DNA of 64,000 nt from NCBI RefSeq assembly GCF_004353825.1, contig NZ_SMNA01000012.1, positions 62,001-126,000 of the forward strand, given 5' to 3'. Below the pieces are notes generated by a model. That model was not told the origin of the DNA. It was given only the letters and a program-made list of their open reading frames with translations, and searched no databases. Source of the DNA: Occultella glacieicola (GTDB taxonomy: Bacteria > Actinomycetota > Actinomycetes > Actinomycetales > Beutenbergiaceae). The position numbers and the translations under genes were made by a program. This document shows positions 27,786 to 51,269 of the stretch, piece by piece (positions within the stretch are counted from its first letter, which is position 1; each line of letters begins with the position of its first letter).

Positions 27786-28877
27786 GTGACGGTTCGGGTG
27801 GCCCTGGTCGGGCTCGGTTTCGGCGCCGAGTTCATCCCGATCTACCAGGCGCACCCGGACGTCGAGCTCGTCGCGATCTGTCAGCGGGACCGGGGCAAGC
27901 TCGACGCGATCGGGGATGCCTTCGGCGTCGAGCGGCGGTACACCTCCTACGAGGAGCTGCTGCGCGACGAGGAGATCGACGCCGTCCACCTCAACACGCC
28001 CATCCCCCTGCATGCCGACCAGTCGGTGGCCGCGCTGGAGGCGGGCAAGCACGTGGCCTGCACGGTGCCCATGGCGTCGTCGGTGGAGGACTGCGCTCGG
28101 GTGGTCGCCGCCGCCGACGCGAGCGGGCGCACATACATGATGATGGAGACGGTCGTCTACTCGCGTGAGTTCCTGCATGTGCAGCGGCTCTACCGAGAGG
28201 GCGAGCTCGGGCGCCTGCAGTTCCTGCGCGGGGCGCACCATCAGGACATGACCGGCTGGCCCGATTACTGGGCCGGCCTGCCGCCGATGCACTACGCCAC
28301 CCACGCCGTCGGTCCGCTGCTGGCCCTGGCGAGCGCCCCCGCGGACACGGTGTCCTGCGTCGGGTCCGGGCGGATCCCGGAGGATCTCCAGGCCCGGTAC
28401 GGGTCGCCGTTCGCCGTGGAAAGCGCGCACATCACCGTACGGGACAGTGACGTCACCGCCGAGGCAAGCCGGTCACTGTTCGCGACGGCACGCGAGTACG
28501 TCGAGAGCTTCGATGTCTACGGCTCGCTGGCATCGTTCGAGTGGGCACAGACCGAGGCGGGTACGCCGGTGCTCTTCCGCGGCGAGGAGGCGTCGTCGCT
28601 GACGGTGCCGGACTATGCCCACCTCCTGCCTGAGGAGATCCGGGCGTACACCACGCGCGGTGTATACGATGCCGAGAATGCGCATCTCTCATTCGCGCAA
28701 GGCAGCGGGCACGGCGGCTCGCACCCGCACCTCGCCCACGAGTTCGTGCGGAGCCTGGTCGAGGGTCGGGAACCGTCGATCGGCGCTCGCACGGCAGCGA
28801 ACTGGACCTCGGTCGGGCTGCTCTCCCACGAGTCGGCGATGCAGGGCGGCGCGACCCTCGCGCTGCCTCGGTTCTAG
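27786..28877 (+). CDS. Divergent Gfo/Idh/MocA oxidoreductase lacking the EKP motif
   Basis: 363 residues from GTG 27786. The Rossmann start is LVGLGFGAEFIPIYQAHPD. Where the family has Glu-Lys-Pro, this protein has Thr93-Val94-Pro95 (HVACTVPMA), so the lysine that contacts cofactor and substrate is missing. HYATHAVGPLL is in the place of the second conserved block, and GSGHGGSHPHLAHEF near the C-terminus is rich in histidines. It is a close paralogue of the protein at 39749-40861, which has the same replacement. A dehydrogenase using another base, or a lyase/epimerase, are both possible. Confidence 0.88.
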   Translation: MTVRVALVGLGFGAEFIPIYQAHPDVELVAICQRDRGKLDAIGDAFGVERRYTSYEELLRDEEIDAVHLNTPIPLHADQSVAALEAGKHVACTVPMASSVEDCARVVAAADASGRTYMMMETVVYSREFLHVQRLYREGELGRLQFLRGAHHQDMTGWPDYWAGLPPMHYATHAVGPLLALASAPADTVSCVGSGRIPEDLQARYGSPFAVESAHITVRDSDVTAEASRSLFATAREYVESFDVYGSLASFEWAQTEAGTPVLFRGEEASSLTVPDYAHLLPEEIRAYTTRGVYDAENAHLSFAQGSGHGGSHPHLAHEFVRSLVEGREPSIGARTAANWTSVGLLSHESAMQGGATLALPRF

Positions 28878-28895
28878 GCGGGGAGCACGCCTGCC

Positions 28896-30179
28896 GTGAG
28901 CGCTCGGGGTGGGTCCGGGTCCGATAGAGCGGCCCACCCCGAGCGGCCCCGGCTCGGCGCTGCCGGTCTGCTACGGCAACCGGTGCGTCAGCAGAGCATG
29001 CGGCACTCCAACCTCGCGCTGGTCGCCGCGCACATCTTCACCGCCGACGAGCCGGTCTCACGCGCACAGATCGTCGCCGCGAGCGGGCTGACGCGGGCCA
29101 CCGTGTCGCGCCTGGTCGAGACCCTGCTCGCCGCTGCCGTGGTCGAGGAGCGCGAGCCGCCACCCTCGCGGGGGGCGGGGCGCCCGGTGCGGCCACTCGC
29201 TCCGGCGGCCGGGACACACGTCGCGCTCGGGCTCGAGGTCAACACGACGAGCCTCGGCGGGTGCCTGGTCGATCTGGCCGGGAACGTGGTGGCCGAGCGT
29301 GTCGTGGACGGCGACTACTTCGCCAGCGACCCGACGGCGGTGCTCGCCGACCTCGCCGCTCTCGCCGACGCGCTTCTGGCCGGGCACTCGGCGAGCGGAC
29401 GACGACACGTGGGCTCGCACGTGTCGTTGCCCGGCGCGGTCGACAACGGAACGATCGTCGTGGCACGCAACCTCGGTTGGCACGACCTCGACATCCTCGG
29501 CCGGCTCGGCACGGACCCCCGGCTGGGTGCGCGCCCGCTGCGGCTCGGCTCGGTCGGCCCGATGTCGGCGCTCGCCGAGAGCCGCTACCGGGAGACGTCT
29601 CGGGGCGGTGGCTCCTTCGCGTGGGTATCGGGCGACAACAGCATCGGGTCCTCGATCATCGTCGACGGGCAGCTCGTCACCGACATGATGGGCTGGGACG
29701 GGAACGTCGGCTCGATCCCCGTCGGGGGCACGGTCGTGGGTGGACGCCCTCTCGAGCGAGAGCCCCTCGACGAGTACGTCGGACGGCGCGCGCTGCTCCG
29801 GCGTGCCGGGCTGCCGACGACGACAAGCATCGAGGAACTCGCCGAGATCGCCCACGCCGGGTCCGCGGCCTCCCTCGAGGCGGCGCTGGCCGACGCCGGC
29901 GCGGCCCTCGGCGAGGTGGTCGCGACGATGATGACCCTGGTCAGCACCCCGGTCGTCGTCTTCGGCGACACTCTCGCCGCCATCCTGCCGTTCGTGGCCG
30001 AGCAGGTCGACGTGGCACTGCGGCAGCGCCTCCCCGCAGGCCACGTCCTGCGGCCCCGGCTCGAGGCCTCGATCACGTCCTCACACGCCGCCATGCGCGG
30101 CGGTGCGCTCAGCATCCTCGAAGAGGCGCTCGCCGATGCGGAACGATGGCTCGTGAAGCCTGCGGTCCTGGGTGGTTGA
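28896..30179 (+). CDS. ROK-family transcriptional regulator without zinc cysteines
   Basis: 427 residues. HTH at about 35-85 (MRHSNLALVAAHIFTADEPV, SGLTRATVSRLVETLL) followed by an ROK fold to the C-terminus. The zinc-binding CxCGxxGC block that ROK proteins carry after the sugar site is replaced by GNVGSIPVGGTVVGG and a stretch with no cysteine. It therefore probably no longer acts as a kinase and may sense its ligand differently. It follows the third oxidoreductase by 18 bases, so it belongs to cassette III. Start GTG 28896 is tentative; Met35 is a possible alternative. Confidence 0.87.
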   Translation: MSARGGSGSDRAAHPERPRLGAAGLLRQPVRQQSMRHSNLALVAAHIFTADEPVSRAQIVAASGLTRATVSRLVETLLAAAVVEEREPPPSRGAGRPVRPLAPAAGTHVALGLEVNTTSLGGCLVDLAGNVVAERVVDGDYFASDPTAVLADLAALADALLAGHSASGRRHVGSHVSLPGAVDNGTIVVARNLGWHDLDILGRLGTDPRLGARPLRLGSVGPMSALAESRYRETSRGGGSFAWVSGDNSIGSSIIVDGQLVTDMMGWDGNVGSIPVGGTVVGGRPLEREPLDEYVGRRALLRRAGLPTTTSIEELAEIAHAGSAASLEAALADAGAALGEVVATMMTLVSTPVVVFGDTLAAILPFVAEQVDVALRQRLPAGHVLRPRLEASITSSHAAMRGGALSILEEALADAERWLVKPAVLGG

Positions 30180-30211
30180 TCGCATCGGCTCCCAGACGTG
30201 CACCGCCCGCC

Positions 30212-30217
30212 TATCCT
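30212..30217 (+). promoter_or_regulatory. Likely -10 of the DUF1330 gene
   Basis: TATCCT at 30212-30217 would give a leader of about 36 bases carrying GAGGAG at 30245-30250 ahead of the ATG. A good -35 is not apparent. Confidence 0.4.
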
Positions 30218-30259
30218 GTTGTGCTGATCGTGACGCGCCCGAGTGAGGAGCCCTCAAAC

Positions 30260-30628
30260 ATGACCAACGACAACGTACGCGGCTTTGCGATCGCCTACCT
30301 GGAAGACGTGGAGGTCGGGCCCGAGATCCTCGAGTACATGTCGCAAGTCGAGTCGACGTTCGTGCCCTTCGGCGGCCAGTGGCTCGTCCACGGAACGCTC
30401 CCGCAGGTCCTCGAGGGCCCGCTGCCCGGCAACGTCGTGATCATCGAGTTCCCCAGCGCCGGCCACGCCCACCGCTGGTACGCCTCACCCGACTACCAGG
30501 AGATCATCGGCCTGCGTGCCGAGCACTCACGCTCGGTCCTGGCGGTGCTGACCGGGGTCGCACCGGGATACCGCGCCGAGGAGACCGTGGCCCAGCTGCG
30601 GTCGGCCGTCGAATCAGGATCCGACTGA
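30260..30628 (+). CDS. DUF1330 family protein
   Basis: 122-residue ferredoxin-like-fold protein of the DUF1330 family, which falls in the dimeric alpha/beta-barrel superfamily. VVIIEFPSAGHAHRWYASPDYQ is the family signature. The function is not established; small oxygenases and isomerases share the fold. GAGGAG is 9 bases before ATG 30260. It seems to be transcribed on its own between two catabolic cassettes. Confidence 0.85.
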   Translation: MTNDNVRGFAIAYLEDVEVGPEILEYMSQVESTFVPFGGQWLVHGTLPQVLEGPLPGNVVIIEFPSAGHAHRWYASPDYQEIIGLRAEHSRSVLAVLTGVAPGYRAEETVAQLRSAVESGSD

Positions 30629-30675
30629 CCCGAAAGCTCCCAGCGGGACGAGCCCCGGGTCGGGGCCCCCTGGCG

Positions 30676-30705
30676 TTGGCGACGACCAAGGCGACTGGCT
30701 ACCGT
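30676..30705 (+). promoter_or_regulatory. Promoter of the aldo/keto reductase gene
   Basis: TTGGCG (30676-30681), an 18-base spacer and TACCGT (30700-30705). The -10 ends 7 bases before ATG 30713, so the transcript should begin at the start codon and be leaderless; this is why the GTG at 30704, which lies inside the -10, was not chosen. Confidence 0.65.
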
Positions 30706-30712
30706 GAGTCGC

Positions 30713-31597
30713 ATGCGCACACGAACGATCGGGAACGTAACCCTCGGCACGGACGAGGTCGGAGCGATCGGGCTCGGACTGATGACGTTCGACCAGACCG
30801 GCCCGCAACCGCGCGAACAACTCGCCGAGACCGTCAGGGCGGCCCTCGACGCCGGGGTCACCCTCTTCGACACCGCCGACGCCTACGGCCCGGGAGAACT
30901 GCTCGGCGCCGACTGCCAGGGCGAGAACGAGAAACTGATCGCCTCACTGCTCGACGAGCTCGGCGTACGTGACCAGGTCCGGCTGGCCACCAAGGGCGGG
31001 TGCGTGCGCACCGACGGCGGCGGCTGGTCACGCGACAGCTCCCCCGAGCACCTGCGCGAGGCCGTGGACGCCAGCCTGCGGCGCCTCGGCGTCGACCAGC
31101 TCTGGCTGTGGCAGCACCACCGACCGGACGAGACCCGCGACTACGACGAGACGATCGGCGTCCTTCGCGAGATCGCCGACTCGGGCAAGGTCCGCGCGGT
31201 CGGCCTGTCGAACGTCAACCCGCACCAGATCCGGGCCGCGCACGCCGTACTCGGCGACCACCTCGTCAGCGTCCAGAACCAGTTCTCCCCCGCGTTCCGC
31301 TCCAGCCACCCCGAGATCGAGGTGTGCGACGAACTCGGCCTCGCGTTCCTGCCATGGAGCCCGCTCGGCGGCCTCGGCAGCGCGAAGGACCTCGCCGACA
31401 AGCACCCGGCGTTCGCGCAGGTAGCCGCCGACCGGGGGGTGAGCCCGCAACAGGTCGCCCTCGCATGGGAACTAGCCCAGGCGCCAGGCGTCATCCCGAT
31501 CCCCGGTGCCAAGCGGCCCACCTCCATCGCCGACTCGGCCGCCGCAGCCGACCTCGAACTCACACCGGAGGAACTCACACTGCTCAACCGTGAATGA
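30713..31597 (+). CDS. Aldo/keto reductase
   Basis: 294-residue TIM-barrel reductase using NADPH. The catalytic tetrad is Asp53, Tyr58 (FDTADAYGPGE), Lys94 (LATKGG) and His135 (LWQHHRP). The cofactor-binding C-terminus includes VIPIPGAKRPTSIADSAAA. It belongs to the broad YajO/YghZ-like group acting on aldehydes or sugar-derived ketones. It appears monocistronic and leaderless, converging on ridA; no pathway can be named. Confidence 0.92.
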   Translation: MRTRTIGNVTLGTDEVGAIGLGLMTFDQTGPQPREQLAETVRAALDAGVTLFDTADAYGPGELLGADCQGENEKLIASLLDELGVRDQVRLATKGGCVRTDGGGWSRDSSPEHLREAVDASLRRLGVDQLWLWQHHRPDETRDYDETIGVLREIADSGKVRAVGLSNVNPHQIRAAHAVLGDHLVSVQNQFSPAFRSSHPEIEVCDELGLAFLPWSPLGGLGSAKDLADKHPAFAQVAADRGVSPQQVALAWELAQAPGVIPIPGAKRPTSIADSAAAADLELTPEELTLLNRE

Positions 31598-31656
31598 CCC
31601 GCATGCCAGGTCCGCGAACCTGACCGCTCGACGGCGGCCGGTCGCGCTCGTGCGCG

Positions 31657-32058
31657 TCACTGGTCGACGACGGCCATCGCGTCGATCTCGACCAGCATCT
31701 GCGGCCACGGCAGCCCGACGAACACCGTCGTGCGCGCCGGCAGGACGCCGGAGGGCACGTGCTCGAGCACGAACGCCTCGTAGGCGTCGTTCATCGCTGC
31801 GAAGTTGGCCTGGTCGGTCAGGAACACCCGTAACGAGACGACGTCGTCGAAGGTTCCCCCGGACGCCTCGACGACGTGACGGACGTTCTCCAGGGTCTGC
31901 GTGGTCTGCCTTCCGACGTCGCCGGCGTGGAGGTACGCACCGGTCTCGGGGTCCTGCGGGCCCTGACCGGAGACCTGGACGATCTGGCCGGCGTGCACAC
32001 CCTGCGAGAACGAGTGAGCCGCCGCCGGTGCCTTCGTAGTCGACAGTGCCTTCTTCAC
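31657..32058 (-). CDS. ridA: RidA family enamine/imine deaminase
   Basis: 133-residue RidA (YjgF/YER057c) protein that hydrolyses reactive enamines and imines produced by PLP-dependent dehydratases. FSQGVHAGQIVQVSGQGPQD and LPARTTVFVGLPWPQMLVEI, including the conserved arginine, are diagnostic. Its neighbour at 32136-33329 is a PLP amino-acid lyase or dehydratase, whose by-products RidA would clear. GTG 32058 is the best start, with GGAGG about 12 bases upstream. It lies 77 bases after the lyase gene, probably in the same operon. Confidence 0.9.
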   Translation of the reverse strand: MKKALSTTKAPAAAHSFSQGVHAGQIVQVSGQGPQDPETGAYLHAGDVGRQTTQTLENVRHVVEASGGTFDDVVSLRVFLTDQANFAAMNDAYEAFVLEHVPSGVLPARTTVFVGLPWPQMLVEIDAMAVVDQ

Positions 32059-32135
32059 GATGTTGACCAACCTCCAGTTGGGTCGTGCGATGGTTCGTCC
32101 CGACGGTGCCGCCGGGGCGTGGATCAAACAGAAAG

Positions 32136-33329
32136 TCAGAAGTAGGAGTGGACGGTGCCGACCTGGCGGTACGCGTCGTCCACGAGGACCGCGCGGGGCC
32201 ACTTGTCGTGGAGCGTGCAGGGGTGCGACGTGCCCAGCACCACGAGTTCTCCGACGGCGGGTTCCGCGCCGGCGGCCGTGCGCACGAAGGCGTGCTGGTC
32301 GTTCAGCTCGAACACCTCGGCATCCTCGAGCGGGCGCAGCACGCCGTCGCGGCGGTACCCCAGCGGAACCGGCAGCCCCTGGTCGTAGGGCACGTCCCGC
32401 CGTCCGGCATTGAGGATCACCAAGCCCGGTTCGGGCACGGACAGGACCTGTGCCCACACCTCACCGGCGGCGATGAAGCCGCCGTCGGCAGCAGACCCCA
32501 GCGGCGAGAGTCGCCGATAGAGGCCGTGGTCATGGGTGAGGTACGCGCCGCTGCGCAGGACGGTGCGCACCGGGCGCCCAGCCTCACGGACGGCCCCGAA
32601 CACCTCCGCGACCACGTCGAAATACAGGCTGCCGCCGGCACTCAGCAGGTACTCGGAGGCGCGGCCGTCCAGCCGGCCCGCCCCGGCGACCCGCTCGAAG
32701 TGCCCGACGACGTCCCCCAGGTAGGCGGCCACGGCACCCAGCGCCTCGGGGTCCCGCGAATGGCTGACGCTGCCCTCGTAGCCGGCCAGGCCCACGAGCG
32801 CCAACACCGCCGACGCGGCCACGGCCCGGGCCACCTCGTCCACGGCCGCGGCGGTCCGGCAGCCGGTCCGCCCACCCGGGTGCCCCACCTCGAGGAGCAC
32901 CGGCAACGCCGGCCCGTTGGCCTCGAGCGCCGCCTCGAGCAGCCGCACCCCCGCCACCGAGTCCACGTAGCAGAGGAACTCGAAGCCCCGGTCGCCGGCG
33001 AGTTCCGCCTGCACCCAGGCGGCGAAGGCCGGGTCCACCAGCTGGTTGGCCATCAGGATCCGCCGGGCGCCCGCGCGCCGGAACACCCGCGCCTGGGCCG
33101 GGGTCGCCACGCTGACACCCCACGCCCCGACCCGCTCCTGGAACTCCCAGAGTTCGGGCGAGACGGCCGTCTTGCCGTGCGGGGCCAGGCTGACCCCACG
33201 CTCGGCGCAGAAGCGGGCCATCAGATCGGCGTTGTGCCGCAGCGCCGGCTCCTTCAGCAGGAGCGCCGGCCAGGCCACGCCCGAGCCGGGCTCGAAGACC
33301 GTCGGGGTGGCGCCGTCGTCGGGGTTCAT
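32136..33329 (-). CDS. Fold-III PLP amino-acid lyase (D-threonine aldolase/D-serine dehydratase-like)
   Basis: 397 residues of the alanine-racemase-like fold. Lys53 in APHGKTAVSP forms the PLP Schiff base; near the C-terminus GTSHPCTLHDKW gives His369 and Cys371, the metal site found in DSD1-type D-serine dehydratases, D-threonine aldolases and D-3-hydroxyaspartate aldolases. Sequence alone does not separate dehydration from retro-aldol cleavage, but RidA next door favours an enamine-forming dehydratase. The M20 peptidase upstream could release its amino-acid substrate from an N-acyl or peptide precursor. Confidence 0.88.
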   Translation of the reverse strand: MNPDDGATPTVFEPGSGVAWPALLLKEPALRHNADLMARFCAERGVSLAPHGKTAVSPELWEFQERVGAWGVSVATPAQARVFRRAGARRILMANQLVDPAFAAWVQAELAGDRGFEFLCYVDSVAGVRLLEAALEANGPALPVLLEVGHPGGRTGCRTAAAVDEVARAVAASAVLALVGLAGYEGSVSHSRDPEALGAVAAYLGDVVGHFERVAGAGRLDGRASEYLLSAGGSLYFDVVAEVFGAVREAGRPVRTVLRSGAYLTHDHGLYRRLSPLGSAADGGFIAAGEVWAQVLSVPEPGLVILNAGRRDVPYDQGLPVPLGYRRDGVLRPLEDAEVFELNDQHAFVRTAAGAEPAVGELVVLGTSHPCTLHDKWPRAVLVDDAYRQVGTVHSYF

Positions 33330-33356
33330 GAGTTCGTTCCTCGTGGTCGGCGGAGG

Positions 33357-34526
33357 TCAGTGCGGGGGTGCGGGCGCCAGCATGATGGCGCGGGCGATCT
33401 CGACGGCGTCGGCCAGTTCGGCGAGGTCGATCGACTCGTCCGGGGTGTGGGCGTCGGCGATCGAGCCCGGCCCGAGCACCACGGCGGGGATGCCGGCAGC
33501 GGCGATCTTGCTGGCGTCACTGCCCCAGCCGGTGCCGATGGCGTCGGCATCGCGGCCCACCCGGGCGAGAACGTCGCGCACACCTGCGACGAACCGGTCG
33601 CCCGGGTCGTTGTCCAGGGCCAGGTCGGTGAGGAACGGTGGCTCCACGGTGACGTCCTCTCCGAACCGGTCGGTGATGCGGTCGCGAAGTTCGCGCCACA
33701 CCTGCTCGGGATCCTCACCCGGCAGCGTCCGGCGGTCCAGGCTCACGGCGCACTCGTTCGGCACCGTGTTCGGGCCGGTTCCGCCGCCGATGAGGGCGGG
33801 CACGAGGGACGCCGGGCCCACCAGTGGGTGCGGGGCGTCGGCGAGCGACGGCGTGACCTCCTCGGCGAGAAAGGTCACCACCCGGGCGATGGTCTCGATC
33901 GGGTTGTCGAGTCCCCAGGGACGGGAACTGTGCCCGCCGGGGCCGGTGGCGACGATCCGGCACCGCATCACGCCCTTGTGGGCCACCACCGCCCGAAGGT
34001 CGGTCGGTTCGCCGACGACGGCGCCGCTCACCTTCGTGGTCGCGTCCCGTTCGAGGTCCTCGAGCAGGCGCAGCACACCCCGGTACTCGTGCTCCTCGTC
34101 CGCGACGCCCGCCACGATGACGGTCCGCGGGGGCGGCTGCGGCGAGCGCGCGACGTCGCGCAGCGCGATCAGGAACGCGGCCAGCGGTCCCTTCGCGTCG
34201 CACGCTCCGCGGCCGAACAGGCGCCCGTCGCGCACCGTGGGCGTGAACGGCGGGGTGGTCATGTGCTCCACCTCGACCGTGTCCAGGTGGGACTCGAAGA
34301 GCACCGCGGTACCGGGGTCGCGCCCGGGGACGGTGGCGACGACGTTGCACCGCCCGTCGACCACGGGCCGGACCTCGGCGGCGATCCCCTGCGCGGCACA
34401 CCAGTCGGCGATCCGTTGGGCCACCGGCGTCTCCGCGGGCTCGGCCGCCCCCCGTGGGTTCACGCTCGGGACGGCGACCAGGTCCGAGAGCAGGGCGGTC
34501 GCGTCCGGGTTGATCGTGTCGGTCAT
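33357..34526 (-). CDS. M20-family metallopeptidase/deacylase (ArgE/DapE type)
   Basis: 389-residue dizinc hydrolase. Metal ligands and the catalytic glutamate can be followed: His80-x-Asp82 (ESHLDTVE), Asp110 (GRGACDAKG), Glu144-Glu145 (ADEEHE), Glu173 (GEPTDL) and a late His (AHTPDES). It removes an acyl or aminoacyl group from an amino acid; GHSSRPWG marks the dimerisation-domain histidine. It lies five bases after the permease gene and before the PLP lyase, so it may process the imported compound. ATG 34526 follows GAGGG closely. Confidence 0.92.
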   Translation of the reverse strand: MTDTINPDATALLSDLVAVPSVNPRGAAEPAETPVAQRIADWCAAQGIAAEVRPVVDGRCNVVATVPGRDPGTAVLFESHLDTVEVEHMTTPPFTPTVRDGRLFGRGACDAKGPLAAFLIALRDVARSPQPPPRTVIVAGVADEEHEYRGVLRLLEDLERDATTKVSGAVVGEPTDLRAVVAHKGVMRCRIVATGPGGHSSRPWGLDNPIETIARVVTFLAEEVTPSLADAPHPLVGPASLVPALIGGGTGPNTVPNECAVSLDRRTLPGEDPEQVWRELRDRITDRFGEDVTVEPPFLTDLALDNDPGDRFVAGVRDVLARVGRDADAIGTGWGSDASKIAAAGIPAVVLGPGSIADAHTPDESIDLAELADAVEIARAIMLAPAPPH

Positions 34527-34531
34527 GTCCC

Positions 34532-35362
34532 TCAGCCCTTCACGGCGCCGGCGGTCATGCCGGCGACCACGTACTTCTGTCCCAGCAGTGCCATCACGAT
34601 CATCGGGGCCGTAATGCTGACGCATGCGGCCATCAAGGCGCCCCAGTCGATGCTGGCGTAGCCGATGAAGTTGAAGATCGCCACCGGCAGGGTCCTGGTG
34701 TTCGTGCCGGACAGGACCAGGGCGAACACGAAGTTGTTCCACGAGAAGATGAAGGACAGGATCGCCGAGGTCGCGATGCCCGGGACCACCAGAGGGATCA
34801 CGATCCTTCGGAACGCCCCGATGTGGGTGAGCCCGTCCACCCGCGCGGCCTCCTCGAGCTCCACGGGCACGCCCTCGAACACCCCGATCATCACCCAGAC
34901 GATCAGCGGAACCGAGATGAACATGTGCGAGATGATCAGCGAGCTGTAGCCACCGACCATCTGCAACGACGCGAAGATGAAGTACCACGGCACCAGCAGC
35001 GTCACGTGCGGGATCACCCGGGACAGCAACACCAGGCCGGACGACTTCGCCATCCCGAACCGCTGCATCGAGAACGCCGCAGGCACCCCGATCAGCAGGG
35101 AGAGCGCCGTCGAACCGACGCCGATCACGAGGCTGTTGAAGAAGAACTGCAGGAAGTCGGCCTGCGCGAAGACGGCCGAGTAGTTCTGCAGGGTCGGCGT
35201 GAAGGAGAACGTGCTGGACGGGTCGTAGATGTCGATGTTCGTCTTGAACGACGCGAGCAGCATCCACACGATCGGGGCCAGGCAGATCAGCCCGAACACG
35301 ATCAGCAGAACGGCCCGGAGCCCGACGAATCCTCGGGACTCGAGGGAGGAACGCGCCTTCAC
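34532..35362 (-). CDS. CUT1 ABC importer permease, MalG type
   Basis: 276-residue permease with the EEAARVDGLT docking loop and the MTAGAVKG tail. GTG 35362 was chosen since it forms a GTGA overlap with the partner permease and AAGGAG lies 8 bases upstream; the frame is open far beyond, but that part only mirrors the other permease. It works with 35359-36285 and 36356-37630. CUT1 importers usually carry sugars, so their association with an amino-acid-processing set is notable. Confidence 0.92.
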   Translation of the reverse strand: MKARSSLESRGFVGLRAVLLIVFGLICLAPIVWMLLASFKTNIDIYDPSSTFSFTPTLQNYSAVFAQADFLQFFFNSLVIGVGSTALSLLIGVPAAFSMQRFGMAKSSGLVLLSRVIPHVTLLVPWYFIFASLQMVGGYSSLIISHMFISVPLIVWVMIGVFEGVPVELEEAARVDGLTHIGAFRRIVIPLVVPGIATSAILSFIFSWNNFVFALVLSGTNTRTLPVAIFNFIGYASIDWGALMAACVSITAPMIVMALLGQKYVVAGMTAGAVKG

Positions 35363-36285
35363 CGGACCTTCTCCTTCCGCCGCATGTTGAGCACCACGAG
35401 CACACCGACGATGATCAGGAAGTAGATCAGCACCAGGGCCGCGGCCATGCCGTACTCGTTGTAGTCGAAGCTCAGGGCGTACGCGTAGATGTTCAGGGTC
35501 TCGACCTCGTGCGAGGACCCACCACCGGTGCCCTTCGTCACGTAGAGCAGGTCGAAGGTCTTCATCGCGTCGATGCTGCGCAGGAGCAGCGCGGCGATCA
35601 CCGTCGTCTTCAGCATCGGCAGGGTCACGTGCCAGAACCGCTGCCAGTTCGAGGCGCCGTCGATCCGGGCCGCCTCCTGCTGTTCCTCCGGTAGGCCGAC
35701 GAGCCCGGCGAGCAGGATCAGGATCACCATCGGGGTCCACTGCCACACGTCCACGAGCATCAGGGTGCCCAGCGCGGTGGACGGGTCGGAGATCCAGCCC
35801 TGGGCGGGTAGCCCGAGCCAGCCCAGGAGCTGGTTGGCGAACCCGACCGTCGGTTCGAAGATCAGCAGCCACATCATGGCCACGGCCACAGGGGTGGCCA
35901 CCAGCGGCAGCAGCATGACCACCCGGATGAGGCCACGCCCCATGAACGGGCGCCGGAGCAGCAGGGCCACGGCCATGCCGATGGTCATCTCGAGGGTGAC
36001 CGCGACGGCGGTGAAGATCACCGTGCGCCACACCGCGGGCCAGAACCGCGCAGTGTCGGTGAGGATGCTGACGTAGTTCTCGAACCAGACGAAGTCGAAG
36101 GCCCTCTGGATGGAGCCTTCCGCGTCGGTGAAGCTCAGCACCACGGTGTACAGCAGCGGCACCACCATCAGGGCGATCACGAAGATGATCGCCGGTGCCG
36201 CGAGCACCCACTTGCGGTGCTTGTTGGCCCAGTCGGAGAACCCGTCCCAGGGTCGCCGCGGTCGACCGGTCACCACTGTGCTCAT
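35359..36285 (-). CDS. CUT1 ABC importer permease, MalF type
   Basis: 308 residues: soluble N-terminus to about 27, first helix at about 28-52, then the transport domain with the QEAARIDGAS loop. It ends with a basic tail (NMRRKEKVR) in the cytoplasm. The 70-bp gap to the binding-protein gene has only a loose 6-bp repeat (GCCGCC at 36309, GGCGGC at 36337), not the strong stem-loop found in three sister operons. Confidence 0.93.
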   Translation of the reverse strand: MSTVVTGRPRRPWDGFSDWANKHRKWVLAAPAIIFVIALMVVPLLYTVVLSFTDAEGSIQRAFDFVWFENYVSILTDTARFWPAVWRTVIFTAVAVTLEMTIGMAVALLLRRPFMGRGLIRVVMLLPLVATPVAVAMMWLLIFEPTVGFANQLLGWLGLPAQGWISDPSTALGTLMLVDVWQWTPMVILILLAGLVGLPEEQQEAARIDGASNWQRFWHVTLPMLKTTVIAALLLRSIDAMKTFDLLYVTKGTGGGSSHEVETLNIYAYALSFDYNEYGMAAALVLIYFLIIVGVLVVLNMRRKEKVR

Positions 36286-36355
36286 CCGTGCCCACCTCCT
36301 TCGTCGTCGCCGCCGTGCCGCGTCAGGACCGACCCGGGCGGCCTCGTGCTCAGGG

Positions 36356-37630
36356 TCACTCGTTCTCTTCGGCGAGGAACTCGTTGAACGCCCCGTCGGC
36401 GGCGTCGAGTGCCGCGTCCACGTCGCCGCCCTCGATCGAGGTCACGATCGGGTCGCCGACGATGTCGCGGGCCCGGCTGACGTTCAGCACCACGGGGTGG
36501 CTGTAGCCGACACCGACCTCCGCGCTGCTGCGCTGGGCCTCGGCGAGGTCCGCCGGGATGTCCGGCATCTCGGTCTCCCATGCGGAGGCCCGCGCCCCGA
36601 TGACGCCGTTCTCCTGCGCCACCAGGGTGTTCTCCTGGTTCGTCGCCCAGCGGATGAACTCCCAGGCGGAGTCCTGGTTGTTGGAACTGCCCGGGACGGC
36701 GAGCGCCCAGGACGGCACGTTGGTGGGGCGGGAGCCGGCCGGCCCCTCGGGGAACTGGGCGAAGCCCACGACGTCGCTGACGGTCGAGTTCGCCGGGTCG
36801 GTGGCGTTGGTGTAGAGGCTGTCCGCCTCGGTGTAGAACGCGGCACGGCCCTGGGTGAAGATGCCCATCGCCTCGGGCCAGCTCATGTTCGTGACTCCGG
36901 GCGGGCCGTAGTTGCGGAGCATGTCGCCGTAGAAGGTGTAGGCCTCCCGTGCCTCGGGGGTGCCGATGCCGGACGTGCCGTCCTCGGCCACCCAGTCGGC
37001 CCCGTAGCTGTAGAGGAAACTGGAGAACTGGGTCACCGCAGCCGCGCGGGCGCCGCGGGAGACGAACCCGTACACGTCGGGGTTCTGGTTCTGGATCGTC
37101 TGCGCCGCGGCCTCGAGTTCCTCGAGGGTCTGCGGGACCTCGAGCCCCGCGGCCTCGAGCAGGTCGGTGCGGTAGTACAGCACCTCACGCTCGGTCGCCA
37201 GCGGCACCCCGAGCACCCGGTCCTCCAGAGTGACGGACTCCTGTGGGCCCTCCTGGAAGTCGCTCCAGTCCCATTCCTCGTCCGTGGTCGCGTGCTCGGT
37301 GAGGTCCGCGAGCCACCCGTTCCGGTCGAAGGTGCGGATCTCCTGGAGAGGACGGACCATCATCACGTCGATGTCGTCGGCGTTGGCGTTCAGGCGAACG
37401 TTGAGCTGCTGCGAGAGCTGATCCTCGGTGTAGGAGGTCACCTCGACGTTCAGGCCGGACTCGGCCTCGAAGTCCTCGACGTTCGCCAGCACCGCGTCGG
37501 TCCACGGGTGGTTCGCGACGGCGATGTTGATCGTGTCGTCCGTGCCACCACCGCTGCACCCGGCCAGGACCATCGCCCCGGTGGCGAGGGTGGCTCCGAG
37601 CATCCACGTGCGCCGATACCGCATACTCAT
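36356..37630 (-). CDS. Extracellular solute-binding lipoprotein, CUT1 family 1
   Basis: 424 residues. Signal MSMRYRRTWMLGAT..., lipobox LAGC (Cys25). The mature chain starts INIAVANHPWTDAVLANV, closer to the glycerol-phosphate/sugar-acid group of family 1 than to MalE. GGAGGAAAC precedes ATG 37630; a second ATG two codons on is a minor alternative. First gene of the leftward operon IV, divergent from the YheO-type regulator. Confidence 0.92.
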   Translation of the reverse strand: MSMRYRRTWMLGATLATGAMVLAGCSGGGTDDTINIAVANHPWTDAVLANVEDFEAESGLNVEVTSYTEDQLSQQLNVRLNANADDIDVMMVRPLQEIRTFDRNGWLADLTEHATTDEEWDWSDFQEGPQESVTLEDRVLGVPLATEREVLYYRTDLLEAAGLEVPQTLEELEAAAQTIQNQNPDVYGFVSRGARAAAVTQFSSFLYSYGADWVAEDGTSGIGTPEAREAYTFYGDMLRNYGPPGVTNMSWPEAMGIFTQGRAAFYTEADSLYTNATDPANSTVSDVVGFAQFPEGPAGSRPTNVPSWALAVPGSSNNQDSAWEFIRWATNQENTLVAQENGVIGARASAWETEMPDIPADLAEAQRSSAEVGVGYSHPVVLNVSRARDIVGDPIVTSIEGGDVDAALDAADGAFNEFLAEENE

Positions 37631-37690
37631 GTTTCCTCCATCGGTGACTCCGTCGTCGGGCCGGTGGCGGTGCCAACCGGTGCGATCTAA

Positions 37691-37730
37691 CCGAACTTCT
37701 ATCAAGTTAACGGAATTTCTACAGTACGCT
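37691..37730. promoter_or_regulatory. Operator and promoter region of the YheO-type regulator
   Basis: Palindrome AACTT (37694-37698), CTATC, AAGTT (37704-37708). Imperfect direct repeats CCGAACTTCTA (37691-37701) and CGGAATTTCTA (37711-37721) are two helical turns apart. TACGCT at 37725-37730 is a likely -10 for the regulator, and ATCTAA at 37685-37690, read leftward as TTAGAT, for the importer operon. No gene lies in the 135-bp gap. Confidence 0.6.
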
Positions 37731-37765
37731 GGACATGCTGTCAAAACACCCGAGGAAGGGCCGAC

Positions 37766-38458
37766 ATGACCGACGCCGACGTGGAGAGCGCCCCGGCCGG
37801 GGCGAAACCGACCTTCGAGAGCATCGACGACCTCTACGCCGTGCTGCATCCGGTCATGCGCGCGATCACGAGCGCCGTCGGCCCGCATTGCGAGGTGGTG
37901 CTCCACGACCTCACGGCGCGGTCGATGGAGAGCACCATCTACGCGATCGAGAACGGGGTGGTCACGGGCCGCTCCGTGGGTGGACCGTCGACGAACCTGG
38001 GCCTGGGCGTGCTGCAGGACGAGCAGGCCAACCACGACGCGTTCGGCTACCACGGACGTACCTCCGACGGCCGTGACCTGCACTGCTCGTCGGTCTACTA
38101 CCGCAACCGGGCCGGCTCGGTGATCGCGGCTTTCTGCATCAACATCGACCTGACCGCGGTCCAGAACGCCCAGGCGATCCTGGCTGCGCTGCTGCCGGCG
38201 GACGGCGAGTCCGCACCCCAGGAGATCGTCGGGCCCGACATCCAGATGGTCCTCGAGGACATGATCGACACCGCGGTCAAGTCGATCGGCAAGCCGGTGA
38301 GCCTGATGACGAAGGCCGACCGGATCAAAGTGCTGCGGCTGCTCGAGGAACGGGGCGCGTTCCACATCAAGCGCGCCGTCGACCGGGTCGCTGCCCGCTT
38401 GGGCATCTCGAAGGTCACCGCCTACAGCGACCTGGAGTCGGTCCGCAGCGCCCGCTAG
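37766..38458 (+). CDS. YheO/DauR-type transcriptional regulator (PAS_6 plus HTH_22)
   Basis: 230 residues. A PAS-like ligand domain (about 20-135; SAVGPHCEVVLHDLTARSME, AAFCINIDLT) and a C-terminal HTH (about 175-228; AVDRVAARLGISKVTAYSDL). The best studied relative, DauR of Pseudomonas, represses D-arginine use, which agrees with the D-amino-acid-like enzymes in the divergent operon. GAGGAAGG precedes ATG 37766. It likely binds the palindrome at 37694-37708. Confidence 0.9.
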   Translation: MTDADVESAPAGAKPTFESIDDLYAVLHPVMRAITSAVGPHCEVVLHDLTARSMESTIYAIENGVVTGRSVGGPSTNLGLGVLQDEQANHDAFGYHGRTSDGRDLHCSSVYYRNRAGSVIAAFCINIDLTAVQNAQAILAALLPADGESAPQEIVGPDIQMVLEDMIDTAVKSIGKPVSLMTKADRIKVLRLLEERGAFHIKRAVDRVAARLGISKVTAYSDLESVRSAR

Positions 38459-38488
38459 TTCGGCGTGAGCCCGCGAGCCGCGCGGTTC

Positions 38489-39667
38489 CTAGCGCCAGCC
38501 ACCCTGGGCCACCACGGACCCGGTGACATCCCGGCGATACCGACCGGGCGAGCGCCCGGTGTGCTTCTTGAACGCGACCCCCATGTACTCCGCGTGCGGA
38601 AAACCGAGGTGCTCCGCGATCCGCGTCATGGTCCAGTCCGTGGAGCCGAGCAGCTCTGCCACCTGGTTCATCCGCACCCGCAGGATCTCGGTGTGCACGG
38701 TCCGGCCCAAGTGCTTGAGGAAGCGCAGGTCGAGGGCCCGCCGGGACAGGCCCACCTCCCGCAGCACCTCGGTCACGGTGATGTTGCGGCCCGCATGGTT
38801 CCGGATGAAGCGCAGCGCCTGCGCCACGGTCACGTCGTCGACCGAGAGGAGGTCCGATGACTGACGCACCACCACCCGGACCGGCGGGATCAGGCGCAGT
38901 CCGGGTTCGACGGTCTCCCCGGCCATCATCCGATCCAGGAGCTCGGCCGCGAGGTACCCGGTGCGTCGCGTGTTCGGCTCGATGCTGGAGAGGGCGGGCG
39001 AGGAGAGGGTACCGAGCAGTTCATCGTTGTCGACCCCGATGACGGCCACCTGGTCGGGAACCTCCAGGCCGGCGATCTTGCAGGCCTCCAGCACCTCCTG
39101 GCCGGCGATGTCGTAGGCGGCGAGCACACCCACGGGCCTGGGCAGTCCGGCCAGCCACCGGACCAGTCGGTCTCGGTCGGTGGCCTTCTTGCCGGTCGGC
39201 CGCAGTCGGAACTCCAGGGCCGGGGCTCCATACACCTCCGAGTGCTGGACGAAGCTCTCCGCTCGCTTCACCGACCAGCCATACCGAGGGTCGCCACAGA
39301 AGGCGAAGTGCCGGATCCCCCGTTCGGCGAAATGCTCGACCGCCCACCGGGCGATCTGGTCGTCGTCCGTCTCCGCGCCGGGCAGTTCCGGCACCAGCCG
39401 ACCGGCGGAGAGATCCACGGCCGGCAGTCCGAGACGCCGCACGAAGGCAGCCGCCTCCGGGCTCTCGATCCTCGCCAACACCCCGTCGCCGGTCCAGCCC
39501 TCGAGCCACGAGAAGTCGGTCTCGAGCCGCGAATGCTCCACCAGATAGAGCGACCAGCCCCGGTGCACCGCGACGTACTCACGCACCCCGTGCAGGAGCC
39601 CGCGCGCGTACCCGTTGGAGGTCTCCACGAGCAGCGCCACGTGTCTCGTCGACTCCGATCCGGGCAC
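38489..39667 (-). CDS. XylR-type AraC-family regulator, second copy
   Basis: 392 residues with the same two-domain layout as the protein at 19487-20668: sugar-sensor domain (VALLVETSNGYARGLLHGV, AYDIAGQEVLEA, VIGVDNDELLGTL) then AraC HTH pair (MTRIAEHLGFPHAEYMGVAF, GRSPGRYRRD). Large parts are identical between the two, so they arose by duplication and probably sense related sugars. GTG 39667 lies 6 bases after TAGAAT (read leftward, 39679-39674), so it looks leaderless. Divergent from cassette V. Confidence 0.93.
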   Translation of the reverse strand: MPGSESTRHVALLVETSNGYARGLLHGVREYVAVHRGWSLYLVEHSRLETDFSWLEGWTGDGVLARIESPEAAAFVRRLGLPAVDLSAGRLVPELPGAETDDDQIARWAVEHFAERGIRHFAFCGDPRYGWSVKRAESFVQHSEVYGAPALEFRLRPTGKKATDRDRLVRWLAGLPRPVGVLAAYDIAGQEVLEACKIAGLEVPDQVAVIGVDNDELLGTLSSPALSSIEPNTRRTGYLAAELLDRMMAGETVEPGLRLIPPVRVVVRQSSDLLSVDDVTVAQALRFIRNHAGRNITVTEVLREVGLSRRALDLRFLKHLGRTVHTEILRVRMNQVAELLGSTDWTMTRIAEHLGFPHAEYMGVAFKKHTGRSPGRYRRDVTGSVVAQGGWR

Positions 39668-39699
39668 GTAAATATTCTACAGAGTCCTGCTAAATTACG
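39667..39699. promoter_or_regulatory. Inverted repeat in the divergent control region of cassette V
   Basis: CGTAA (39667-39671) and TTACG (39695-39699) bracket a region that includes the leftward -10 TAGAAT (39679-39674). Half-sites extend to CGTAAATA and, from the other strand, CGTAATTTA. This could be the site of the second XylR-type regulator. It is unlike the TCCCA sites of the first copy. The whole gap is only 81 bp. Confidence 0.5.
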
Positions 39700-39748
39700 C
39701 ATGGTGATCGGCTGGGCCGCTTCATACGGTGGCAACAGGAGGTCACAG

Positions 39749-40861
39749 ATGACGACAAGCGTTCGCATTGCCATCGCAGGTCTCGGCTTCGGAGCCGAGT
39801 TCATTCCCATCTACCAGGCACACCCGGACACCGAACTGGTGGCCGTCTGTCAGCGCAGCGAGGATGCGCTGCGTCGGACCGCCGACCACTTCGGGATCGA
39901 GGGCCGCTACACGAACTTCGACGCCATGCTCGCCAACCCGGACATCGACGCGGTGCACATCAACACCCCGATCCCCGACCACGCGGCACAGTCGATCGCG
40001 GCCCTCCGGGCAGGCAAGCACGTCGCGTGTACGGTGCCGATGGCCACCACCGTCGACGAGTGCCGTGCCATCGTCCGGGCCGCTCAGGAGAGCGGCCGGA
40101 ACTACATGATGATGGAGACGGTCGTCTACTCCCGTGAGTTCCTGTACGCCAAGCAGCTGCTCACCGATGGCACCCTTGGCCGGATCCAGTTCCTGCGCGG
40201 CGCGCACCACCAGGAGATGGCCGGTTGGCCCGGGTATTGGGAGGGGCTGCCGCCGATGCACTACGCGACCCACGCCGTCAGCCCGTTGCTCGCGCTGACC
40301 GGCACCCTCGCCGAGAGCGTGGTGTGCCAGGGATCCGGCCGCATCTCCGAGGAGCTGACGGCGAAGTACGGCTCTCCCTTCGCCGTCGAGTCCGCGCTGC
40401 TCACCCTGCGCGACTCCCCGGTCGCCGCCGAGGTGGCGCGGTCGCTGTTCGAGACCGCCCGCGAGTACGTGGAGAGCTTCACCGTGTTCGGCGAGCACGC
40501 CACCTTCGAGTGGGAACAGACCCAGGGAGTCGGCCACGTGCTGCACGTGGGCGAGCAACCCGAGCGGGTGGAGGTCCCCGACTTCGCCCACCTGCTGCCC
40601 GCCGAGATCGCCCCGTTCACCACCCGCGGGGTCTATGACGACGACAACCAGCACCTCTCGTTCGTCCAGGGCAGCGGCCACGGCGGCTCACACCCCCACC
40701 TCGCCCACGAGTTCGTGCGCAGCATCGTCGAGGAGCGCGCCAGCGCGATCGACGCTCCCACGGCGGCGAACTGGACGTCCGTGGGCATCTGCGCCCACGA
40801 GTCGGCGATGGCCGGCGGCGAGCGGATCCAGATCCCGGACTTCGCGGCGGTACGGCTATGA
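39749..40861 (+). CDS. Divergent Gfo/Idh/MocA oxidoreductase lacking the EKP motif, second copy
   Basis: 370 residues. Shares GLGFGAEFIPIYQAHPD, MMMETVVYSREFL, PPMHYATHAV and GSGHGGSHPHLAHEFVRS with the protein at 27786-28877. The EKP motif is again replaced, Thr95-Val96-Pro97. ACAGGAGGTC gives a strong ribosome-binding site before ATG 39749. First gene of cassette V and overlapping the TIM-barrel isomerase gene by four bases, so the two products probably act together, for example oxidation at one carbon followed by isomerisation or elimination. Confidence 0.9.
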   Translation: MTTSVRIAIAGLGFGAEFIPIYQAHPDTELVAVCQRSEDALRRTADHFGIEGRYTNFDAMLANPDIDAVHINTPIPDHAAQSIAALRAGKHVACTVPMATTVDECRAIVRAAQESGRNYMMMETVVYSREFLYAKQLLTDGTLGRIQFLRGAHHQEMAGWPGYWEGLPPMHYATHAVSPLLALTGTLAESVVCQGSGRISEELTAKYGSPFAVESALLTLRDSPVAAEVARSLFETAREYVESFTVFGEHATFEWEQTQGVGHVLHVGEQPERVEVPDFAHLLPAEIAPFTTRGVYDDDNQHLSFVQGSGHGGSHPHLAHEFVRSIVEERASAIDAPTAANWTSVGICAHESAMAGGERIQIPDFAAVRL

Positions 40862-41682
40862 GCACCGGACCGAGGGTCAGCGTCGCCACGATCTGCTTCG
40901 ACGGCTTCGGCGACGAGAACTTCGAACCCACCTTCGCCCACGCCCCGGCCCTGGGGATCCGGGAGATCGAGTTCAACACCTGGTACCCCCGCAACCTCAC
41001 GCCCGCCGGGCTGGACTCGGTGCGGCAGCGCAGCGAACGGGCCGGGCTACGGCCCGCCACCCTGCAGGTGTCGCCGTTCGCGCCCGGCCCGGACAGTGCC
41101 GACCTGACCCGCGAGAGCAGCCGCTGGCTGTGGCTGCTCGAGGCCGCGGAGCGACTCGGCGTCGGCGTGATCAAGGCCACCGGCTCGGCACGCGGCACCC
41201 ACGGCGGCCTGGACGCGGTGATCGACCTGCTCCGGGTGATCGCCCCGATCGCGGCCGAACGCGGGCTCACCATCGCCGTCGAGAACCACGCCAACAACGT
41301 CCTCGAGCACCCCGAGGACTACGACGAGTTGTTCGCCGCGATCGGTACCCCCGCCGTCGGCATGTGTCTGGACACCGGGCACTTCGCTGCCTCCGGGCAC
41401 GATCCGGTCGCGGTGGCCGGCCGGTTCGCCGACCGCCTGGTCCACCTCGACCTCAAGGACTGCGCCGGCATGGTCGACGGCGCTCCACAGTTTGTCCGCT
41501 TCGGTCACGGCACCGTCGACTTCGACGCCACCCTCGCCACGGCCGTGTCGAACGGATACACCGGGTACCTCGTCATCGAGCTGCCTCTCATCGACCGCGC
41601 AACGATGGCGGCCGACCTCCGTGCGGGAGCCGAGTTGGCCCTCCGCCACACCCCCGATTTCACCTCCCCCCTCTCGACATAA
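40858..41682 (+). CDS. Sugar phosphate isomerase/epimerase-like TIM barrel
   Basis: 274 residues of the AP-endonuclease-2 TIM-barrel superfamily. Metal ligands expected from the family are visible: Glu142 (VENH), Asp172 and His175 (LDTGH), His196 (VHLDLKD) and a late Glu (VIELPL). Members include tagatose/psicose 3-epimerase, inosose dehydratase and C-glycoside-cleaving enzymes. Coupling to a Gfo/Idh/MocA gene fits an inositol-like or 3-keto-glycoside route. ATGA overlap at the start; 11 bases to the next gene. Confidence 0.88.
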   Translation: MSTGPRVSVATICFDGFGDENFEPTFAHAPALGIREIEFNTWYPRNLTPAGLDSVRQRSERAGLRPATLQVSPFAPGPDSADLTRESSRWLWLLEAAERLGVGVIKATGSARGTHGGLDAVIDLLRVIAPIAAERGLTIAVENHANNVLEHPEDYDELFAAIGTPAVGMCLDTGHFAASGHDPVAVAGRFADRLVHLDLKDCAGMVDGAPQFVRFGHGTVDFDATLATAVSNGYTGYLVIELPLIDRATMAADLRAGAELALRHTPDFTSPLST

Positions 41683-51209: not shown

Positions 51210-51239
51210 TTCAAAGGTTGAATCGCTCCAATGCTTGGA
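51210..51239. promoter_or_regulatory. Tandem 13-bp palindromic operators of the rhamnose locus
   Basis: TTCAA-AGG-TTGAA at 51210-51222 and TCCAA-TGC-TTGGA at 51227-51239 have the same layout, T(T/C)CAA-N3-TTG(A/G)A, with centres 17 bases apart. They lie in the divergent gap 51053-51269, near the DUF4838 start, and are candidates for the LacI-type regulator encoded at 53658-54656. TTGACA at 51182-51187 may be a -35 but no matching -10 was found. Confidence 0.65.
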
Positions 51240-51269
51240 TTCGAACGTCCCCACAACGGAGAGTGGACA

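Follow-up and report, generated by a model that had tools for sequence, protein, structure and literature searches.

Two genes in a 64,000-nucleotide stretch of the Occultella glacieicola genome (contig NZ_SMNA01000012.1, positions 62,001 to 126,000; from here on the window) encode proteins of the Gfo/Idh/MocA fold in which Thr-Val-Pro (TVP) occupies the site that reads Glu-Lys-Pro (EKP) in the wider family. Trees and aligned residues indicated that these TVP proteins belong to a clade without the EKP lysine, and that they are the sister of GH109, a glycoside hydrolase family whose members AmGH109A (6T2B) and A-zyme (2IXA) are N-acetylgalactosaminidases dependent on nicotinamide adenine dinucleotide (NAD+), while standing outside the GH109 clade itself. 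Both this kinship and the rebuilding of the active site in the TVP proteins are well supported. We assign a probability of about 0.5 to the reading that the TVP proteins are cytosolic, NAD(P)-dependent sugar enzymes that form a lysine-less branch sister to GH109, act by a GH109-like mechanism and have a TIM-barrel protein as partner.

Translation of both genes confirmed what a preliminary description of this DNA had said of them, namely that TVP replaces EKP at residues 93-95 of TVP protein 1 (P0001) and 95-97 of TVP protein 2 (P0002). Each gene translates cleanly without internal stops, the single TAG in copy 1 being its own stop codon, and reads C-T-V-P-M-A at the site. The two proteins are 66% identical, have MHYATHA and GSGHGGSHPHLAHEF in common, and match the NAD-binding Rossmann domain PF01408 at 85.4 and 86.5 bits (cut-off 24) and the C-terminal domain PF22725 at 24.4 and 24.0 bits, under its cut-off of 27; no NCBIfam model scored above its own cut-off, and no export signal was seen on inspection by eye. 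That the copies are undecayed, with a Rossmann start, a HYATHA block and a shared region, had also been proposed and holds, since both reading frames are open and have the invariant family residues described below; decay and sequencing error were rejected on these grounds. Recent tandem duplication was rejected too, because the two copies fall in different subclades with other organisms between them.

A search of the window's genome with TVP protein 2 gave 32 matching places at E ≤ 0.001 (30 made into loci, which we label L with a number), and a GH109-like Paenibacillus protein matched only the two TVP genes at E ≤ 1e-30, with 11 of the 49 first-look candidates scored. Besides the two TVP genes the genome contains three lysine-less genes, which read Ala-Val-Pro (AVP; L003 and L005) or Ser-Val-Pro (SVP; L004), and its remaining Gfo/Idh/MocA proteins in our alignment table keep the lysine. 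These three genes, and the lysine loss held in common with GH109, go beyond the preliminary description.

The TVP family and its kinship with GH109

One scan of genome contigs with a sequence pattern gave at least 589 matching stretches, of which 554 or more were confirmed as relatives; the locus counts below refer to the best 80 of these, which come from Bacteroidota (56), Actinomycetota (6), Bacillota (6), Planctomycetota (6), Verrucomicrobiota (3), Chloroflexota (2) and one source without a phylum. The closest named relative of TVP protein 1 among its best 80 relatives is from Occultella aeris (94% identity). Of 39 genomes, made up of the window's own and those of relatives, 13 had a match at E ≤ 1e-60, and plasmids contained no TVP copy at that threshold. 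Our family alignment comprised 97 distinct rows, the window genes included: 92 core rows, every one of which reads TVP, and five outer rows, 44-50% identical to TVP protein 2, of which one reads TVP and four read AVP. The 46 other rows of one alignment, from several phyla, are 57-80% identical to TVP protein 2. All 97 rows share Val96, Pro97, His153, Gln155, Tyr163, Trp164, Tyr172, Thr174, His175, His311, Gly312, Gly313, Ser314, His315 and His317 (numbered as in TVP protein 2), and the family's invariant parts include the Rossmann glycine pattern, GLGFGAEF. No characterised TVP protein appeared among the best 60 of 76-97 PDB matches, which were remote and mostly confined to the N-terminal half, and no publication on the subfamily or on a characterised TVP homologue was found in literature searches of which some were weak, the slashed spelling Gfo/Idh/MocA apparently being missed.

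We built trees without the diagnostic columns, with the root placed by choice, from TVP proteins, the outer rows, an AVP family, GH109-like proteins, the aligned parts of 6T2B and 2IXA, and lysine-bearing paralogues. In the 80-row tree the 44 lysine-less rows made up one side of a branch with support of 100/99 (bootstrap/Shimodaira-Hasegawa-like approximate likelihood ratio test, SH-aLRT), within which we recovered a GH109 clade (99/94), a clade of TVP, AVP and outer rows (100/94) and a clade of the 23 TVP rows (100/99). A 121-row tree, which added GH109-like, AVP and TVP proteins from other genomes and was searched more briefly, again placed the lysine-less rows, now 84, on one branch (SH-aLRT 94), with a GH109 clade (100), TVP plus AVP as its sister (95) and the TVP core (99). 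The sequences of the GH109 crystal structures 6T2B and 2IXA lie inside the lysine-less clade.

Counted on the 121-row tree, loss of the lysine requires one change, as does the Cys-Gln-Arg motif at the cofactor site; the His-x-Gln pair requires two, because the lysine row L015 also has it, and three are needed for the TVP triplet, since two rows that do not belong to the core, L045 and L192, share it. Given the single lysine-less branch and the single change, the most likely history is a single loss of the lysine ahead of the split between GH109 and TVP, with the threonine of TVP as a minor variant and the older loss of the lysine as the key change. Thus the preliminary description, which took TVP for the defining change, was right that the triplet is real, but the lysine loss preceded it. 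It had also suggested a subfamily, to be checked as a clade with conserved histidines, and had named as contrary evidence a scatter of TVP members across the tree without further conserved changes. The core is a single clade in both trees, with several histidines and several other changes fixed, and we rejected scattered convergent substitution as an account of it.

Like the TVP proteins, the GH109 enzymes lack the EKP lysine (reading EVP or EVS) and have Glu at position 123, a Y-x-T-H motif and a GGHGG-type loop (G-x-G-H-G-G at 308-313 in TVP). The two groups differ in that TVP proteins are only 18-21% identical to GH109 in the fold alignment, have His153 in place of Tyr226 and Gln155 in place of the His two residues on, have Gln35-Arg36 in place of Asp35 in the core, are shorter in the stretch 155-172 and are encoded beside sugar importers. 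Because they lie outside the GH109 clade and are without its Tyr226, we rejected membership of GH109.

The next nearest relatives of the TVP proteins are the AVP/SVP proteins (L003-L005), which are 32-37% identical to them almost over the full length and share the missing lysine, Glu123, Y-P-T-H and an N-G-H-x-G loop, but keep the GH109-like Tyr153-x-His155 and Asp35; we found no characterised member. This second lysine-less family (mostly A-V-P, Y-x-H and N-G-H-x-G) also comprises L132-L159, L204-L207 and L212-L214, and a match at E ≤ 1e-100 is present in 20 of the 39 genomes, including the window's own, which has three paralogues. A Cyclobacterium protein (L165; AVP, Y-x-H, GHDGSH) appears intermediate between the AVP and TVP families, with a tree support of 15.

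Active site, cofactor site and predicted fold

We counted residues by column in the 121 rows (84 lysine-less, 37 with the lysine) and in a smaller set (44 and 40 rows). The lysine at the EKP site, present in 37 of the 121 rows, is absent from all 84 others. Glu123 is found in 84/84 lysine-less rows but 1/37 lysine rows, Tyr172 together with His175 in 84/84 but 0/37, and His-x-Gly at 311-313 in 81/84 but 2/37. One of the three lysine-less rows missing the last feature, L211, is a true difference, and the other two, L204 and L045, are alignment gaps (L045 does contain GHGG). We note that the two lysine rows with such a loop, L018 and L030, are proteins of the window's own genome that read G-G-H-x-G and are possibly relatives of the ancestor of the lysine-less clade; because of them, GHGG alone was rejected as diagnostic of GH109.

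The Asp of the DxxxH motif has gone as well. In the smaller set the lysine rows have Asp (26/40) or Glu (6/40) in this column and the 44 lysine-less rows have neither; in the larger set the figures for lysine rows are 23/37 and 6/37, and neither residue is among the lysine-less letters listed. The 92 core rows have His (89), Tyr (2) or Trp (1) there, and the His of DxxxH, which is His175, is kept in 97/97 rows of the family. With the lysine and the Asp both gone, His175 is the sole survivor of the Lys-Asp-His set. Positions 153 and 155 separate the TVP family from its relatives, being Tyr153-x-His155 in 16/16 GH109 and AVP rows and His153-x-Gln155 in 28/28 TVP and outer rows; the Tyr proposed as C2 base in GH109 is present in 5/5 GH109 rows and in 19/19 GH109-clade rows shown for the larger tree, whereas His153 stands there in 97/97 TVP family rows. 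The idea, voiced in the preliminary description, that another residue acts in the role of the lysine is borne out to this extent: the active site is rebuilt and the lysine absent clade-wide, so others must replace it.

Among lysine-less rows the motif Cys34-Gln35-Arg36 is restricted to the TVP core (Arg36 in 92/92, Gln35 in 90/92), position 35 being Asp or Glu in 20/20 outer, AVP and GH109 rows with letters and, in the larger set, in 44/44 non-core lysine-less rows with letters. This position aligns with Ser64 of glucose-fructose oxidoreductase (GFOR), the site of an S64D variant in the PDB that we take to alter cofactor preference. One review describes the 2'-phosphate site as positive in an NADP-binding arabinose dehydrogenase and as hydrophobic or negative in some NAD-preferring members (PMC9795676). 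Judging from Gln35-Arg36, the cofactor of the TVP core is probably NADP(H).

An AlphaFold2 model of TVP protein 2, made from a 47-row alignment, had a predicted local distance difference test score of 88.9 and a predicted template modelling score of 0.91, and aligned almost full-length to structures of the family. VIA-align placed 6t2b_A first among the best 50 rows (Z 37.4, root-mean-square deviation (rmsd) 2.4, 342 residues aligned), followed by 2ixa (Z 36.9, rmsd 2.6, 344 aligned) and levoglucosan dehydrogenase (Z 35.9, rmsd 2.7, 334 aligned), with the GH188 enzyme SqgA (8qc5) at rank 13 (Z 34.6, rmsd 2.8, 334 aligned); the top Foldseek match was likewise 2ixa. Since the margin in Z over ordinary dehydrogenases is small, the fold backs the kinship with GH109 without proving it.

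In the structural alignment, Tyr226, His259 and His404 of AmGH109A correspond to residues 153, 175 and 311 of TVP protein 2, with one offset, 25 above the chain index. The acid-base is reportedly located in the GGHGG loop, to go by the title of Teze et al. 2020. According to a paper on SqgA, His404 of AmGH109A serves C3, Tyr226 serves C2 and His259 serves the glycosidic bond, whereas in the SqgA complex O1 is contacted by the counterpart of His404 and O3 by that of His259 (PMC10755693). These roles conflict, and therefore either His175 or His311 could serve C3 in the TVP proteins and the other C1. SqgA itself, an NAD+-dependent sulfoquinovosidase (8QC2-8QC8), has the same fold as the TVP proteins and two histidines at the positions of His175 and His311, and is described in that text as oxidising its substrate at C3. 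It differs in keeping the lysine (Lys107, which contacts O3) that is absent from 97/97 TVP family rows, in having Glu163 where AmGH109A has Tyr226 and TVP proteins have His153, and in binding sulfoquinovose, for which Arg166 and Lys172 are given as the residues that bind the sulfonate (PMC10755693).

Candidate reactions of the TVP proteins

In the GH109-like mechanism that we favour, the common ancestor of TVP and GH109 would have lost the EKP lysine and the DxxxH Asp, and would have kept or gained Glu123, Tyr172 and the His of the GGHGG loop (His311) beside the retained His175. The cofactor would oxidise the sugar at C3, aided by His175 or His311; His153, at the place of GH109 Tyr226, would remove the acidified hydrogen at C2; the group at C1 would depart with acid help from the other of the two histidines; and water or another acceptor would add before the C3 ketone is reduced back. 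We infer that the enzyme would work beside a TIM-barrel sugar epimerase or eliminase, on a small sugar or glycoside imported by an ATP-binding cassette (ABC) or major facilitator superfamily (MFS) transporter.

As to the proposed partner, 56 of the 80 loci have an AP_endonuc_2 TIM barrel on the strand of the TVP gene and no more than 400 bases from it (a raw count; distances were taken between reading frames that run from stop to stop rather than between annotated genes): 49/56 in Bacteroidota, 3/6 in Actinomycetota, 2/2 in Chloroflexota, 1/6 in Bacillota, 1/1 unassigned, 0/6 in Planctomycetota and 0/3 in Verrucomicrobiota. Such neighbour counts are not independent, because related Bacteroidota dominate the sample. 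The usual barrel resembles D-tagatose 3-epimerase; the copy at L105 has 2ou4 as its best PDB match (E 9e-47) and scores 201.5 bits with the NCBIfam model of D-psicose 3-epimerase, under the cut-off of 300. TIM-barrel sugar isomerases together with a Gfo/Idh/MocA protein are also found in the LgdA/LgdC levoglucosan pathway (PMC7676230) and in an Agrobacterium 3-keto-glycoside operon (PMC10628242), where the barrels carry out, or are proposed to carry out, beta-elimination and hydration of 3-keto glycosides, while reduction falls to the Gfo protein. This likeness points to 3-keto-sugar chemistry as the probable domain of the TVP enzymes. It supports the GH109-like reading and a plain reductase alike, the Gfo proteins of both systems being described there as plain dehydrogenases or reductases. 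Levoglucosan dehydrogenase is slightly farther from TVP by fold than GH109.

Several points weigh against a GH109-like mechanism. No TVP protein with a measured activity was found, and because another residue takes the place of the Tyr proposed as C2 base in GH109, the TVP proteins may not have conserved the GH109 chemistry. A shift to NADP(H) is more in keeping with a net reductase than with a hydrolase whose cofactor stays parked, and TIM-barrel neighbours also occur in the pathways of oxidation, elimination, hydration and reduction just cited. The Z score of levoglucosan dehydrogenase is just 1.0-1.5 under those of the two GH109 structures. The lysine-less branch, supported at 100/99 in the smaller tree, drops to 94 in the larger one, which was searched more quickly, and both trees were flagged for long branches (lysine-bearing outgroup rows) and unusual composition (several rows). 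Finally, the His-x-Gly loop is present in the lysine-bearing L018 and L030 and missing from the distant lysine-less L211.

The main rival, which we regard as a tentative possibility, is that TVP proteins are net NADPH-dependent 3-keto-sugar reductases. An exported or partner dehydrogenase would make the 3-keto sugar, the TIM barrel would epimerise it or remove the aglycone, and the TVP protein would reduce the ketone with NADPH, using His175 and Tyr172 in place of Lys and Asp. The replacement of the acidic residue by Gln35-Arg36 at the GFOR S64D position and the positive 2'-phosphate site of an NADP-binding member (PMC9795676) are consistent with this, as are the resemblance of the neighbours to the levoglucosan and Agrobacterium pathways, each of four enzymes, where the Gfo enzyme performs the last reduction, and the cupredoxin or cytochrome c domain found in two scanned proteins of the neighbouring DUF7133 type. 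However, the His of the GGHGG loop, which has a role in C-O cleavage in GH109 and is invariant in 97/97 rows, would not be expected in a plain reductase, and the nearest characterised relatives are hydrolases.

The preliminary description named a non-redox lyase or epimerase as a possibility; we considered a redox-free or redox-neutral epimerase or lyase, acting on a sugar or inositol with the dinucleotide transient or structural. Loss of the lysine and Asp of the usual proton relay would suit such an enzyme, as would the adjoining ketose 3-epimerase-like barrels and the barrel of the window, whose best match is IolE, far under cut-off. A redox-free reaction is nevertheless improbable, because the Rossmann cofactor site is intact, with GLGFGAEF invariant, and the nearest characterised relatives, the GH109 enzymes, use NAD+ chemically in a transient oxidation. 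The reaction of TVP proteins may involve no net redox change, yet is probably not redox-free. Least probable, indeed very unlikely, is an ordinary dehydrogenase with TVP as a neutral substitution and other residues doing the same job: the fold is the same, His175 is retained and a His-to-Asn mutant at the candidate base of one family member stayed active (PMC9795676), but two relay residues have gone together and several new residues are fixed clade-wide across at least six phyla.

A bolder form of the GH109-like reading, which we hold to be rather doubtful, is that the TVP core is the first NADP-dependent type of oxidoreductive glycosidase, intracellular and present in at least six phyla, with His153 and His311 replacing the Tyr and His of GH109, an imported glycoside as substrate, a TIM-barrel partner and a glycoside hydrolase or lyase family of its own. 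If TVP proteins are GH109-like, many bacteria would have an unrecognised route for cutting sugar bonds by transient oxidation, and the ordered changes (Lys and Asp lost, Tyr replaced by His, the acidic residue by Gln-Arg) would offer a testable explanation of the path from a dehydrogenase fold to a glycosidase with a different base and cofactor. The genes of the TVP group are probably annotated merely as Gfo/Idh/MocA oxidoreductase, and a few columns let annotators tell lysine-less members from true dehydrogenases. The group is common and directly testable, and a lysine-less relative of known activity, GH109, already exists.

Gene context

Within 5 kb of the TVP gene, ThuA-like domains are encoded at 52 and DUF7133 at 55 of the 80 loci, almost all in Bacteroidota, a XylR/AraC regulator at 11, and DUF6807 at 7, five of which are Paenibacillus loci; at two scanned actinobacterial loci the next gene encodes a ribose-type permease. 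A 3-keto-disaccharide hydrolase (PF06439) was rejected as a general partner, being present within 10 kb at 3/80 loci (adjoining at L085). Neighbours without a Pfam match numbered 3/8 in one scan and 1/10 in another, and these high-GC reading frames are possibly not genes. In the five Paenibacillus loci (L052, L056, L058, L068 and L074) the gene for a DUF6807 protein (PF14100) comes after the TVP gene or overlaps it slightly, and just 5' of the TVP gene at L066 (206-4150) a 1315-residue frame fuses DUF6807, DUF7133, HEAT repeats and cytochrome c. The TVP protein may be a partner of the DUF6807 domain.

Table 1. Features of the window discussed in the text (positions within the window)
Feature	Position	Strand	Remarks
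TVP protein 1 (P0001, 363 aa)	27786..28877	+	Lysine-less Gfo/Idh/MocA-fold enzyme, TVP core clade; GTG start
T93-V94-P95 codons of TVP protein 1	28062..28070	+	Site of Glu-Lys-Pro in wider family
His309 codon of TVP protein 1, GSGHGG loop	28710..28712	+	Equivalent of AmGH109A His404
TVP protein 2 (P0002, 370 aa)	39749..40861	+	Second copy, other subclade of TVP core
T95-V96-P97 codons of TVP protein 2	40031..40039	+	Site of Glu-Lys-Pro in wider family
His311 codon of TVP protein 2, GSGHGG loop	40679..40681	+	Aligned with AmGH109A His404
AP_endonuc_2 TIM-barrel sugar isomerase/epimerase	40858..41682	+	4-base overlap with end of TVP gene 2
XylR/AraC-type sugar regulator	38489..39667	-	Divergent from TVP gene 2; arrangement recurs at other TVP loci
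Second XylR/AraC-type regulator	19487..20668	-	67% identical to 38489-39667; divergent from gene row toward TVP gene 1
Short-chain dehydrogenase	26960..27745	+	Directly 5' of TVP gene 1; also in L034, L037-L040, L043, L044
Sugar ABC-transporter binding protein	25608..26924	+	Upstream of TVP gene 1
Gfo/Idh/MocA dehydrogenase, lysine kept (VEKTGA)	24467..25531	+	
ROK-family protein	28896..30179	+	Downstream of TVP gene 1
Alpha-L-rhamnosidase	54747-56960		
FGGY sugar kinase	49646-51052		

In the window, the barrel that overlaps TVP gene 2 is of another type than the usual tagatose 3-epimerase-like one, its best NCBIfam match being inosose dehydratase IolE, far under cut-off, and a close relative of it follows the TVP gene in L031-L033, L035, L036 and L079 (five loci of the same family and one of Microlunatus). 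No TIM barrel adjoins TVP gene 1 or the TVP genes of its relatives L048-L050. The lysine-bearing Gfo/Idh/MocA protein upstream of TVP gene 1 reads E-K-T for E-K-P and has thus lost the Pro, as have the corresponding genes of L048 and L049. The rhamnosidase and FGGY kinase nearby hint at plant glycosides and tie no substrate to TVP; adjoining both is a DUF4838 protein with a GH67 N-terminal-like domain (51231-53651).

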